From positions 1-20,293 of IMG/VR virus record IMGVR_UViG_3300020450_000124: a DNA stretch of 20,293 nucleotides; one strand, 5' to 3'. The first letter of the stretch is position 1. Each line of letters starts with the position of its first letter. The notes under the pieces were generated by a model that searched no databases, had not been told where the DNA came from, and worked only from the letters and a program-made list of their open reading frames with translations. A program made the translations under genes and the position numbers. The stretch is from a virus. Positions 3,523 through 13,002 of the stretch are shown here, in pieces.

Positions 3523-4752
3523 ATGATGGAACTAGCATTGATCCACACTATGCTGGACAAAGAGTTCTACAATAATCACAAAGGTATACGCTGCCCCGAT
3601 AAAATATTTACAAAAGAAGTACGTAAGATCAAGCAAACACTAGACTACGCTATGGATACGTACGACAAGAACCTTACTCCTGTGGAACTACAGGCATTGT
3701 TTGAGTCTAACAACAGGAGTATGACTACAGCAAACAGAGAACTATATCGTGATCTATTCAGCAAAATAGCCAAAGAAAAACCTTTGAATAAAGAGATAGC
3801 GACAGATGTTCTGTCAAAACTATTTCAACAAACGATAGGCGAAGAGATTGCCAATGTAGGGTTTGATTATGTCAACGGTTCAAGGACTGGATTAGAGCCT
3901 TTACGAAGTATACTAAATGATTATGAAGATAATTTTCTGCCTAAGATTTCTATTGATTGGGATGATACATCTTTAGAAACAGTATTAAAACTTAATGACC
4001 AACAGTCTAAATGGAAATTTAACATACCGTCATTAGCACGAAGAGTTAAAGGCATTAGCCCTGGTCACTTTATCGTTGTGGGTGCAAGACCTAACACAGG
4101 TAAAACAAGTTTTCATGCTAGTATAATTGCATCCGAAAAAGGTTTTGTGGAGCAAGGGGCTAAATGTATTATCTTACTGAACGAAGAAGGATATGAACGT
4201 GTATGTTTAAGGTATATATGTGCAGCTACAAACATGAGCGTAGAAGAGGTGTATGCAAATAGGGCTTTAGCTACACTGAGATATAAACCTGTGGACGAGA
4301 ATATTTTTATTAAAGAAAGCTCAGGTAAAAATATGGATTGGGTTGAGGCTGTTGTAAAACAATCTAAACCAGACATTCTTGTGCTAGATATGGGTGACAA
4401 GTTTTCATCAGGTAAAGGTGAACGATCCGATTTATATTTAAAAGAGGCTGCAATACACGCACGTAACATAGCAAAGCAGTATAAGTGTGCTGTTATATGG
4501 ATGTCTCAATTGAGTGCAGTAGCAGAAGGTTTAGTGCATCCAGATCAATCTATGCTAGAGGGTAGCCGTACTGGTAAAGCAGCAGAGGCTGACTTGATGA
4601 TACTTTTATCGCAGAACAAAGTAGTAGAAGGTATGAGTGAAGAAGAAACACGTCAACGCCACTTAAACATTGCAAAGAATAAACTTAGGGGTGGCTGGCA
4701 TGGCACTATACATTGTGAGCTAGACATAGAAAGAAGCACGTTCCTAGCATGA
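3523..4752 (+). CDS. Replicative DNA helicase, DnaB/gp4 type
   Basis: This 409-aa RecA-fold hexameric helicase would unwind DNA at the phage fork. Residues 1-110 are helical and resemble the DnaB N-terminal domain (ELALIHTMLDKEFY at the start). Walker A is GARPNTGKTS at 187-196 (Lys194) and Walker B is DILVLDMGD at 284-292 (Asp289). The conserved 'WMSQLS' glutamine motif and a 'SRTGKAAEAD' segment with likely arginine-finger and loop residues follow. It has no fused primase domain; the partner primase is at 1809-2597. The start at ATG 3523 has GAGGAG (3511-3516). An immediate second ATG at 3526 cannot be excluded. It ends in an ATGA overlap with the polymerase gene, suggesting coordinated production of fork proteins. 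Confidence 0.92.
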   Translation: MMELALIHTMLDKEFYNNHKGIRCPDKIFTKEVRKIKQTLDYAMDTYDKNLTPVELQALFESNNRSMTTANRELYRDLFSKIAKEKPLNKEIATDVLSKLFQQTIGEEIANVGFDYVNGSRTGLEPLRSILNDYEDNFLPKISIDWDDTSLETVLKLNDQQSKWKFNIPSLARRVKGISPGHFIVVGARPNTGKTSFHASIIASEKGFVEQGAKCIILLNEEGYERVCLRYICAATNMSVEEVYANRALATLRYKPVDENIFIKESSGKNMDWVEAVVKQSKPDILVLDMGDKFSSGKGERSDLYLKEAAIHARNIAKQYKCAVIWMSQLSAVAEGLVHPDQSMLEGSRTGKAAEADLMILLSQNKVVEGMSEEETRQRHLNIAKNKLRGGWHGTIHCELDIERSTFLA

Positions 4753-6797
4753 GACTTGTACTTGACGTAGAAAATACGATAACTAAAAGAGAAAAGAAAA
4801 ACATTCTTGATCCGTTTGAACCTGGTCTTGAACTTGTACAGGTGGGTGTACAAAATGTAGACAGAGTAAACGAGACATATTTGTTTACGCTTAATCATAA
4901 AGAGTCACAAGATGTTGGAGGTTCTAAAACAAAAAGCATTCAAGATATACTAGATAAAACAACCTTATTAATTATGCATAACGCACAGCATGACTTGATG
5001 TGGTTGTGGGAGTCGGGTTTCAAGTATGACGGTGACATCTATGATACGATGTTAGCTGAGTATCTATTACAACGTGGCAAGAAAGAACCTATAAGTCTTG
5101 AGGCTTGTGCTGAACGTAGGAATCTAAACTACCAGAAGCAAGACACTCTCAAAGAGTATTACAAGAAAGGATACAACACCAATGAGATACCTTTACAAGA
5201 GCTTCTTTTTTATCTTAGGAGTGACCTCGACATTACTCGTGAGTTGTTCCTTGCCTTGGAACAAGACTACGCAAAGCCAGAATCAGAGTCCTTACATAGA
5301 GTTAAAGACATTACCTTCCGCACCTGTAAAGCCCTCACCAGAATGTATATGTCAGGAATCCGTGTGGACAGAACCGCCCTTCAGCAAGTCCGAATAGAGT
5401 TTGAGAAAGAGAAAGCTGAGATAGAAGACAGGCTGCAGCGCAAGACTCGTGATCTTATGGGTGACACACCTATCAATCTCAACAGTCCAGAACAAGCATC
5501 TCAAGTTATATTTAGTAGACGTGTGCACAACAAAAAAGAATGGGCTGATCTGTTTGAATACACGAATACAAAACAAGAGTTCAAAGAAGCAGTTGAAGCA
5601 AATAGTTCTATCATTAAAAAGACTAGAGCTTTTACCTGTGCAACATGCGGTGGACGTGGGTATGTGCACAAGAAAAGAAAAGACGGTACGCCTTACAAAA
5701 AAGCAAACAAATGTAAAGACTGTGAAACCCGAGGCTATCAATTAAAAGAAACAAAACAAGTAGCAGGGTTGTGTTTTTCTGCACCAAACAAAAATTGGAT
5801 AAGCGCAAATGGATTCAGTACTAGTAAAGGTAATTTGGAAAGTCTTATTACTACCGCTACGAATAACAATATGCAGCTTGCTCTTAGCTTTCTTACTGAT
5901 CTTAAGCGTTTGTCTGCTATCAGCAGTTACCTTAGCAGTTTCGTGGATGGTATCGAAATACACACCAAACCTAACGGAATCTTACACGTCAGCCTTACCC
6001 AGCACATCACCAGTACAGGTAGATTTTCTGGAAGAAATCCCAACATGCAAAACATGCCTAGAGGAGGAACATTTCCAGTAAAGCGTGTGTTTATATCACG
6101 TTGGGAAGGTGGTCAGATCATGGAATGTGACTTTGCCCAGTTGGAGTTCAGAGTTGCTGCATTTCTTTCACAAGACAGCACAGCCATGCAGGAGATAGAA
6201 ACAGGATTTGATGTGCATTCCTACACGGCACAGGTAATAAGCAATGCAGGACAGCCTACAGAGCGTCAGGCAGCAAAGGAGCATACCTTTGCCCCTCTCT
6301 TTGGCGCTACAGGTTACGGTAGAACTAAAGCTGTAGCTGCTTACTACCAACACTTTACTGATAAGTATAAAGGTGTAGCCAAGTGGCATAAGAATCTAGG
6401 TGATGAAGCCGTGAGGTTTCTAAAAATTACTAATGTGAGTGGTAGACAATACGCATTCCCTGAAGTGACTCGAAGGAGTAATGGTAGTGTGTCACACTTT
6501 ACTATGATAAAGAATTACCCAGTACAAGGATTTGCTACAGGTGATATTGTTCCTGTAGTACTACTAGAGTTTGAGCGATTGCTTGAACCTCTACAATCAT
6601 GCTTAGTCAATACAGTGCATGACTCTATGGTAATAGATGTGCACCCTGACGAAGTACGTAAAGTCTTGACTATCGTTGAGATTATAAACAAGAATCTAAA
6701 CTGTGTCATAAAAGACGCATACGATATAGAAATGAATGTGCCTCTCTTACTTGAAGCCAAGATAGGAGATAATTGGCTTGACACAATAGACGTTTAG
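4749..6797 (+). CDS. polA: Family A DNA polymerase with DnaJ-like zinc insertion
   Basis: This 682-aa replicative polymerase has proofreading. Exonuclease motifs: Asp6/Glu8 (LDVEN), HNAQHD with Asp82, and Tyr155/Asp159 (YLRSD). The exonuclease site therefore looks intact. Residues about 297-329 hold CATCGGRG and CKDCETRG, a DnaJ central-domain-like zinc module (Cys297, 300, 322, 325), which I know from HMO-2011-type phage polymerases. Polymerase motifs: TSTGRFSGRNPNMQNMP, motif A ECDFAQLEFR (Asp461), motif B RQAAKEHTFAPLFG (Arg506, Lys510, Phe514, Phe518) and motif C VHDSM (Asp625). Phe514 aligns with E. coli Phe762. Phe518 replaces the usual Tyr766. Motif C has HDS rather than HDE. It starts by ATGA overlap with the helicase gene. 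Confidence 0.96.
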   Translation: MRLVLDVENTITKREKKNILDPFEPGLELVQVGVQNVDRVNETYLFTLNHKESQDVGGSKTKSIQDILDKTTLLIMHNAQHDLMWLWESGFKYDGDIYDTMLAEYLLQRGKKEPISLEACAERRNLNYQKQDTLKEYYKKGYNTNEIPLQELLFYLRSDLDITRELFLALEQDYAKPESESLHRVKDITFRTCKALTRMYMSGIRVDRTALQQVRIEFEKEKAEIEDRLQRKTRDLMGDTPINLNSPEQASQVIFSRRVHNKKEWADLFEYTNTKQEFKEAVEANSSIIKKTRAFTCATCGGRGYVHKKRKDGTPYKKANKCKDCETRGYQLKETKQVAGLCFSAPNKNWISANGFSTSKGNLESLITTATNNNMQLALSFLTDLKRLSAISSYLSSFVDGIEIHTKPNGILHVSLTQHITSTGRFSGRNPNMQNMPRGGTFPVKRVFISRWEGGQIMECDFAQLEFRVAAFLSQDSTAMQEIETGFDVHSYTAQVISNAGQPTERQAAKEHTFAPLFGATGYGRTKAVAAYYQHFTDKYKGVAKWHKNLGDEAVRFLKITNVSGRQYAFPEVTRRSNGSVSHFTMIKNYPVQGFATGDIVPVVLLEFERLLEPLQSCLVNTVHDSMVIDVHPDEVRKVLTIVEIINKNLNCVIKDAYDIEMNVPLLLEAKIGDNWLDTIDV

Positions 6798-6838: not shown

Positions 6839-7696
6839 ATGAGTACAGAATTAGCAATGCAAAAAGATCTGGGCATGTCTCTCGCAGAAGCGGTAGGCGT
6901 AACAAATTCTGACGGAGTAGAAAGACGAACATCGAACTTAGCTAGACTTAACTTGATGCACAAAGGTATCATGGGTGAGATCGAAGTTGACGGTAAGGCT
7001 ATGAAAACGGAAGTGGTTTCTGCAGGTTCTTATGTCCTTACGCAAAATGACGAAGAAATATTTTTATCAAATCCTACAGTAAGGATCTTTGCTATTCGAC
7101 AGCAATACAAAAAATGGAATAGTGATGAAGACTTCATGATGAAGAGCGTCATGGCTACAGACCTCAAGGGTGACCTTAAAGATAACATGGGTACATTTAA
7201 TTTAGGTAGACCATCAGGCTACATTAAAGATTGGGATTCTGTTCCTGAAAAAACTAAAGAAATAATTAGAAACATTAAAAGAAAGAAAATTATCTTTGGT
7301 ATATTGACCGCCTCAGAGGTTGTTGATGAGCAAGGAAATAAAATAGACGCCATCAAAGATCCTGTCGCTTTCTTTATGGAGATTGCACCTTCAAGTATTA
7401 AACGTCTTGATCTTGCGGTAAACGCTTTATCAAGAAAAAACATCCTGCCCATACAACACACTCTTACCTTTGGGGCAGAGCCAGGTGGAGAAACTTATTA
7501 CGTTATGACGTTTGATGCTAAAGAAAGGGTTGAGCTTGATCATACTGATCAGGAAATACTAAGTAACTTCTTAGAGTACATTACGAATGAAAACGCACAG
7601 ATTTTAGATCAGTGGGAAGAAAAAAATAAAGACTCAGTAACTGAAGAGGAAGCTGCACTAGTTGCTGAATTTGTAAATGTCGAAGAAGAAGATTAA
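6839..7696 (+). CDS. Putative ssDNA-binding protein (285 aa)
   Basis: I take ATG 6839 as start, with GAAGGAAG upstream; a TTG at 6821 would add six residues but overlaps that SD. The protein is soluble, mixed alpha/beta, and ends in a strongly acidic tail (EEEAALVAEFVNVEEED), the type of C terminus used by T7 gp2.5 and other SSBs to bind partners. It has no nuclease or nucleotide-binding motif. It sits directly after the polymerase and before exonuclease and endonuclease I, where podoviruses usually keep their SSB (gp2.5 is 232 aa, this is longer). A strong promoter and good SD suit an abundant protein. The SSB role is inferred from position, tail and composition; a recombination-annealing protein is the main alternative. 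Confidence 0.6.
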   Translation: MSTELAMQKDLGMSLAEAVGVTNSDGVERRTSNLARLNLMHKGIMGEIEVDGKAMKTEVVSAGSYVLTQNDEEIFLSNPTVRIFAIRQQYKKWNSDEDFMMKSVMATDLKGDLKDNMGTFNLGRPSGYIKDWDSVPEKTKEIIRNIKRKKIIFGILTASEVVDEQGNKIDAIKDPVAFFMEIAPSSIKRLDLAVNALSRKNILPIQHTLTFGAEPGGETYYVMTFDAKERVELDHTDQEILSNFLEYITNENAQILDQWEEKNKDSVTEEEAALVAEFVNVEEED

Positions 7697-12998: not shown

Positions 12999-13002
12999 CT
13001 AT

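Follow-up and report, generated by a model that had tools for sequence, protein, structure and literature searches.

Gene Content of the Window and Identity of the Polymerase

The window, by which the whole analyzed stretch of DNA is meant, is a virus record in the form of a 20,293-base fragment, and its genes follow the order integrase, primase, DnaB-type helicase, polymerase, an unnamed gene, exonuclease, endonuclease I, MazG and class II RNR. The polymerase, the elements of its thumb and the downstream gene are located in Table 1.

Table 1. Location of the polymerase, its thumb-tip elements and the downstream gene in the window.
Feature	Position	Strand	Basis
Family-A DNA polymerase, 682 aa (3'-5' exonuclease, thumb, palm, fingers)	4749..6797	+	Pfam, AlphaFold2 (AF2), fold search
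Thumb helix after NLNS, residues 247-255	5487..5513	+	Corresponds to the helix that follows FNLSS in Klenow
Thumb-tip insertion, residues 259-354, with a length of 96 aa (relatives, 96-121 aa)	5523..5810	+	Alignment with Klenow, StenR_269, L254 and T7; AF2
Stem strand 1, residues 290-296; nearly all sequences keep K/R291 and T292	5616..5636	+	Conservation, AF2
Putative zinc knuckle 1, CATCGGRG, residues 297-304	5637..5660	+	C297 and C300 in 289/289; G302 in 288/289
Basic hairpin YVHKKRKDGTPYKKANK, residues 305-321	5661..5711	+	K/R308 in 285/289; K/R310 in 288/289
Putative zinc knuckle 2, CKDCETRG, residues 322-329, degenerate at 327	5712..5735	+	C322, C325 and G329 in 289/289; G327 in 185/289
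Stem strand 2, residues 330-338	5736..5762	+	AF2
Probable phage SSB, 285 aa, acidic C-terminal tail	6839..7696	+	AF2 beta-barrel, BFVD matches, tail charge

In the Pfam search the polymerase matched DNA_pol_A (PF00476) at residues 331-677 with an E-value of 2.6e-49 and a score of 168.6 bits against a cut-off of 34.3, which assigned it to family A, and DNA_pol_A_exo1 at residues 53-172 (E 9.5e-8). Between these two matches lies a partial DnaJ domain (PF00684, residues 291-333) with CxxC pairs, as is characteristic of HMO-2011-type polymerases. The catalytic residues D461, H624, D625, K510 and R506, together with D6 and E8 of the exonuclease, were invariant in 80 sequences. The closest annotated polymerases were those of CRP-603, CRP-2 and CRP-207, with 69-71% identity (about 70% for CRP-2 and CRP-603), and the order of the replication genes was close to that of HMO-2011 and CRP-2. 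Since the identity to CRP-2 is 70% and the gene order is shared, the window protein was placed among the HMO-2011-type polymerases. The polymerases of Puniceispirillum phage HMO-2011 and of the Roseobacter phages CRP-2, CRP-603 and CRP-207 have the family, the insertion and the four cysteines described below in common with it, and phages of this type show a similar neighborhood of integrase, primase, helicase, polymerase, unnamed gene, exonuclease, endonuclease I and class II RNR.

Additionally, a tyrosine integrase is encoded upstream of the replication genes (905-1822), which suggests that the window virus is a temperate member of the HMO-2011-type group. No capsid or terminase gene was recognised in the 20,293-base fragment among the families searched. 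Two long proteins of 1169 and 638 aa are encoded on the minus strand between 13003 and 18438, the larger of which had no match in PHROGs, and the sign of the GC skew flips near 13,000, along with the change of coding strand.

Conservation of the Cysteine Knuckles

A partial DnaJ domain has already been published for the polymerases of HMO-2011-type phages (PMC9038755, PMC6918029, PMC8528129), which account for as much as 19.7% of the family-A polymerases in individual marine virome data sets (PMC9038755). In the window protein, the initial annotation had picked out Cys297, Cys300, Cys322 and Cys325 (CATCGGRG...CKDCETRG) as a single zinc unit of the DnaJ type. The four residues were found at that place, their codons spanning 5637-5723 within the flagged stretch 5634-5742 (residues 296-331), and the feature is real, strongly conserved and proper to a known phage group, with its place in the polymerase restated below.

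Conservation was assessed in 289 distinct full-length sequences, that of the window included (34-89% identity to it), which came from phage records, from one scan of genome contigs and from IMG/VR scans that used five polymerases as seeds; at no more than 80 loci per scan, the figures refer to this sample and not to HMO-2011-type phages as a whole. The four cysteines were present in 289 of the 289 sequences, close homologues included, and the remaining six cysteines of the window polymerase were not conserved. This result was not built into the collection, since the scan patterns contained none of the four knuckle cysteines. When the residues of the polymerase were shuffled, any CxxC-x(15-40)-CxxC arrangement arose in 13 of 20,000 shuffles, and one with CxxCxGxG as its first motif in 0 of 20,000.

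The glycines of the knuckles were kept to different degrees: Gly329 in all 289 sequences, Gly302 in 288, Gly304 in 280 and Gly327 in only 185. The second knuckle of the window protein therefore reads CxxCxTxG and not the full CxxCxGxG. The strict rule of two CXXCXGXG motifs, as stated in PMC9038755 and PMC8528129, was satisfied by 178 of the 289 sequences and would miss both the window protein (CKDCETRG) and the published member CRP-2 (CKDCDARG); in the published work, in which motifs were checked by eye, the rule was evidently applied loosely. In the CRP-738-like polymerases (32/289), 33-34 residues instead of 21 separate the equivalents of Cys300 and Cys322, so that the hairpin varies in length among relatives and the knuckles do not.

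The PF00684 match (DnaJ_CXXCXGXG) had an E-value of 5.6e-4 and a score of 20.6 bits, below the curated cut-off of 32.7, and the score fell below this cut-off in every member tested. Together with the invariant cysteines, this sub-threshold match agrees with a single unit of the DnaJ type, but not with a complete DnaJ central domain. That domain likewise carries CxxCxGxG knuckles on beta strands, but it has four motifs and two zinc sites, whereas the phage module corresponds to half of it, with two motifs, one expected zinc site and no J domain. The J domain is the part of DnaJ that stimulates DnaK, and none was matched in the Pfam search of the polymerase. The resemblance to DnaJ could be read as a sign that the module binds a host partner such as the DnaK system, in the way that DnaJ serves the replication of lambda, and this parallel has been raised in the literature (PMC9038755). 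Nevertheless, the module has just two of the four motifs of DnaJ, and it occurs in isolates from SAR116, Roseobacter and SAR11 hosts without any host-linked change of the cysteines; a host partner is considered very improbable.

Position and Predicted Fold of the Insertion

The initial annotation had set the module between the proofreading and polymerase halves, ahead of the palm. The position ahead of the palm was borne out, but the alignment and the AF2 model placed the module within the tip of the thumb and not between the two halves. The insertion starts after the helix that follows NLNS (FNLSS in Klenow), ends at GFSTSK (GAPSTSEE in Klenow) and replaces the short thumb-tip loop of Klenow. 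A short loop without cysteine knuckles is also found at that point in the polymerases of StenR_269, VpV262, Vibrio 1.015 and the viral contig L254. At the start of the insertion, the CRP-3 (FNIGVDHRGKPL) and CRP-738 (FNIFTDDEGKPL) subgroups carry an extra D-x-x-GKPL stretch that resembles the short thumb loop of StenR_269 (DHKGKPL) and may be a remnant of a loop predating the zinc unit.

T7 gp5 was aligned by anchoring on FNPSS (residue 334), the equivalent motif, which its thioredoxin-binding domain precedes. Since the module of the window follows the NLNS helix and the T7 domain enters before the motif, both insertions belong to the thumb tip, where they flank a single helix from either side. 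Hence, the insertion is not a thioredoxin-binding domain of the T7 type, which would lie before FNxSS, and the earlier remark that it occupies a different place from the T7 loop holds for the point in the sequence but not for the subdomain, which is the same.

AF2 modeling of the polymerase with 80 sequences gave a mean pLDDT of 92.7 and a pTM of 0.84, with values of 85-94 across the insertion. The predicted order comprises helices 262-271 and 275-284, strand 290-296, knuckle 1, the hairpin, knuckle 2 and strand 330-338, the two-stranded stem bearing the two knuckles, and the thumb continues after the insertion with helices 360-372 and 376-405. The matches listed from a PDB fold search with the polymerase included Bst/Klenow Pol I and the Pol I of phage G20c (7r0k) but no DnaJ; the 7r0k passages on the thumb mention neither an insertion nor thioredoxin. 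Only weak matches were obtained when the 48-aa module was searched against solved structures (ribosomal bL33, E 0.087; DnaJ 1exk, E 4.9).

A further match was obtained with Anti-TRAP (PF15777), which hit the insertion of HMO-2011 itself with an E-value of 2.5e-5. By sequence this match covered HMO-2011 and HTVC033P, was weak in CRP-3 and did not appear for the window's own polymerase at the threshold used; the AF2 fold prediction is consistent with it. Anti-TRAP is a one-zinc relative of DnaJ, a zinc-requiring protein of 53 aa in which two CXXCXGXG motifs bind zinc (PMC2896485). It has two motifs of this type on one zinc unit, as is predicted for the phage insertion, but the Bacillus protein is a free-standing oligomeric regulator of TRAP (PMC2896485), whereas here the putative unit is part of a polymerase. 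The match of the HMO-2011 insertion to Anti-TRAP speaks for a single putative zinc site. The insertion would thus form one zinc-stabilised beta hairpin of the DnaJ or Anti-TRAP type, borne at the thumb tip by a two-stranded stem, in which the two CxxC knuckles would bind one zinc and fix the Lys/Arg-rich hairpin.

Distribution and Origin of the Insertion

With two different query modules, the insertion was detected only in 12 HMO-2011-type records among 50,697 phage records. All 12 matching annotated phage records were of this type and, in line with the publications cited above, the module can be taken as a mark of HMO-2011-type phages, as the initial annotation had proposed. It was not found in the plasmid search. 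Among genome contigs, one full-length HMO-type polymerase and one fragment were recovered, both from environmental MAGs, and at the other five loci the polymerase was of the cellular Pol I type or of another kind lacking the module. The MAGs holding HMO-type polymerase genes are labelled Euryarchaeota and Flavobacteriaceae (PAZU01000016.1 and PANU01000010.1); these are most likely phage contigs binned to the wrong organism. In scans of viral contigs, the StenR_269 polymerase as a query returned one relative (L254) and that of Alteromonas R8W returned two. In a tree built from the palm of 24 polymerases, one change sufficed for the zinc-bearing group, with weak support (27/79), and this group adjoined the short-loop group. 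This distribution is compatible with one gain.

Insertions without cysteines were observed at the same point in the polymerases of Alteromonas R8W, Stappia SI01, Vibrio K437b, ICP2 and MEP402. They likewise follow the NxxS helix and are of comparable length in several cases, but they lack the knuckles and fall on a branch separate from the zinc-bearing group. Given these cysteine-free counterparts, the zinc need not be the decisive element. The zinc unit might, in this light, be a structural brace that folds an older thumb-tip insertion inherited from podoviral polymerases and makes no functional contact itself. This explanation would account for the cysteine-free insertions in polymerases assigned to Autographiviridae and Zobellviridae, for a profile comparison that runs through both flanks, and for the variability of most side chains, the commonest residue having a mean frequency of 0.51 in the insertion outside the knuckle-hairpin segment. 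It leaves unexplained, however, why a basic residue is kept at 308, 310 and 291 in at least 98% of the sequences, and the short-loop group stands between the two insertion-bearing groups in the tree, although that branching is weakly supported. We regard a mere brace as improbable.

The polymerases of MEP402, ICP2 and P-SSP7 are split into two annotated genes, and in MEP402 an extra ORF lies between the two parts.

The Basic Hairpin and Its Proposed Contact With DNA

The segment from Cys300 to Cys322 carried a mean net charge of +5.8 (range +2 to +10) and a charge of +7 in the window protein, whose overall net charge is close to zero. Lys or Arg occupied position 291 in 288 of the 289 sequences, position 308 in 285 and position 310 in 288. 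The position and the charge of the hairpin suggest that it helps the polymerase to hold DNA. When the thumb closes on primer and template, the basic hairpin would touch the phosphate backbone of the new duplex behind the active site, and this contact could raise DNA affinity and processivity with no need for a separate factor such as thioredoxin. No tested role for the module was found in the publications covered here, in agreement with the initial annotation, which had offered a host partner, a clamp and template recognition as options; among these, the conserved basic hairpin, judged from sequence, would favor a grip on DNA.

Several lines of evidence point in this direction. The four cysteines are invariant while the other six vary; a conserved basic hairpin sits between the knuckles of a nearly neutral protein; the insertion is predicted with confidence where Klenow has its thumb-tip loop; and the insertion of HMO-2011 matches a zinc binder. 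E. coli Pol I with a truncated thumb is reported to be less processive and less faithful (Minnick 1996, cited in PMC10061031), and in the T7 thioredoxin-binding domain, also at the thumb tip, exposed basic residues contacted the DNA backbone in molecular dynamics (PMC5984650). On the other side, basic surfaces can bind acidic protein tails as well, cysteine-free insertions about as long occupy this point in other podoviral polymerases, and no member tested reaches the PF00684 cut-off. Weighing these points, we give about an even chance to a zinc-stiffened basic finger at the thumb tip that would grip the upstream duplex and raise processivity.

Zinc hairpins commonly bind nucleic acid, and the module could instead recognize a structure of the template or primer, such as an RNA primer made by the separate phage primase, or an origin. 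Primase and helicase are indeed separate proteins here and fused in T7. The conserved residues, however, are mostly basic and not of a base-reading kind, and the thumb, as judged from its equivalence to Klenow, would lie on the duplex behind the primer end, so that recognition of this sort appears very improbable.

The thioredoxin-binding domain of T7 gp5 is also a basic thumb-tip insertion of a phage family-A polymerase, but it enters before FNPSS, has no cysteine knuckles and needs host thioredoxin (PMC5984650), whereas the insertion of the window follows the NLNS helix. It is conceivable, though rather doubtful, that this abundant marine phage group swapped a borrowed thioredoxin clamp for a built-in, zinc-stabilised basic finger across the same thumb-tip helix, which would give a self-contained processive family-A replicase whose finger may also receive the acidic tail of an SSB. 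The thumb-tip site and the conserved basic hairpin turn a catalogue remark into a testable claim on processivity and, if this is true, the polymerase would offer a compact, self-contained clamp for comparison with T7 thioredoxin. The placement in the thumb tip, the AF2 fold, the Anti-TRAP match of the HMO-2011 insertion, the conserved basic hairpin and the probable SSB described next are new to this analysis.

The Gene Downstream of the Polymerase

The gene directly downstream of the polymerase starts with the ATG at 6839, and its 285-aa product gave no informative family match. AF2 predicted a beta-rich barrel with disordered ends (pLDDT 87). The PDB search returned no significant match, RB69 SSB being the most probable (0.41), and in the BFVD search most matches were unnamed, the named ones of high probability being SSBs (Acinetobacter phage ZZ1 SSB, E 9.3e-4; uncultured phage SSB, 1.2e-3). 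The last 15 residues had a net charge of -4 or lower in 80% of 259 distinct tails, compared with 3.6% of control ORFs. Judging from the modeled fold and the tail, this protein is probably an SSB.

This protein brings in the main rival of a grip on DNA, namely that the hairpin docks the SSB or another partner of the replisome. The predicted barrel, its named SSB matches and the frequent acidic tails would fit such docking, and the family-A polymerase of a C. perfringens mobile element has been predicted to bind its own SSB by the tip of its thumb (PMC10061031). Nevertheless, the charge of the hairpin and that of the tail were positively correlated (rho 0.29, 230 pairs, relatedness not controlled), and since this sign is opposite to the one expected, charge compensation between hairpin and SSB tail was not seen. 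Acidic tails are, moreover, general among SSBs and usually bind several partners, and the PDB fold search of the downstream protein was not significant. Docking was accordingly judged unlikely, and a direct grip on the duplex is preferred.

HMO-2011-type phages are predicted to encode an SSB that has gone unrecognised. An unannotated gene was present downstream of the polymerase in the five of five HMO-2011-type isolates examined; it adjoins the polymerase in four of them, and in HTVC033P one small ORF lies between the two genes.
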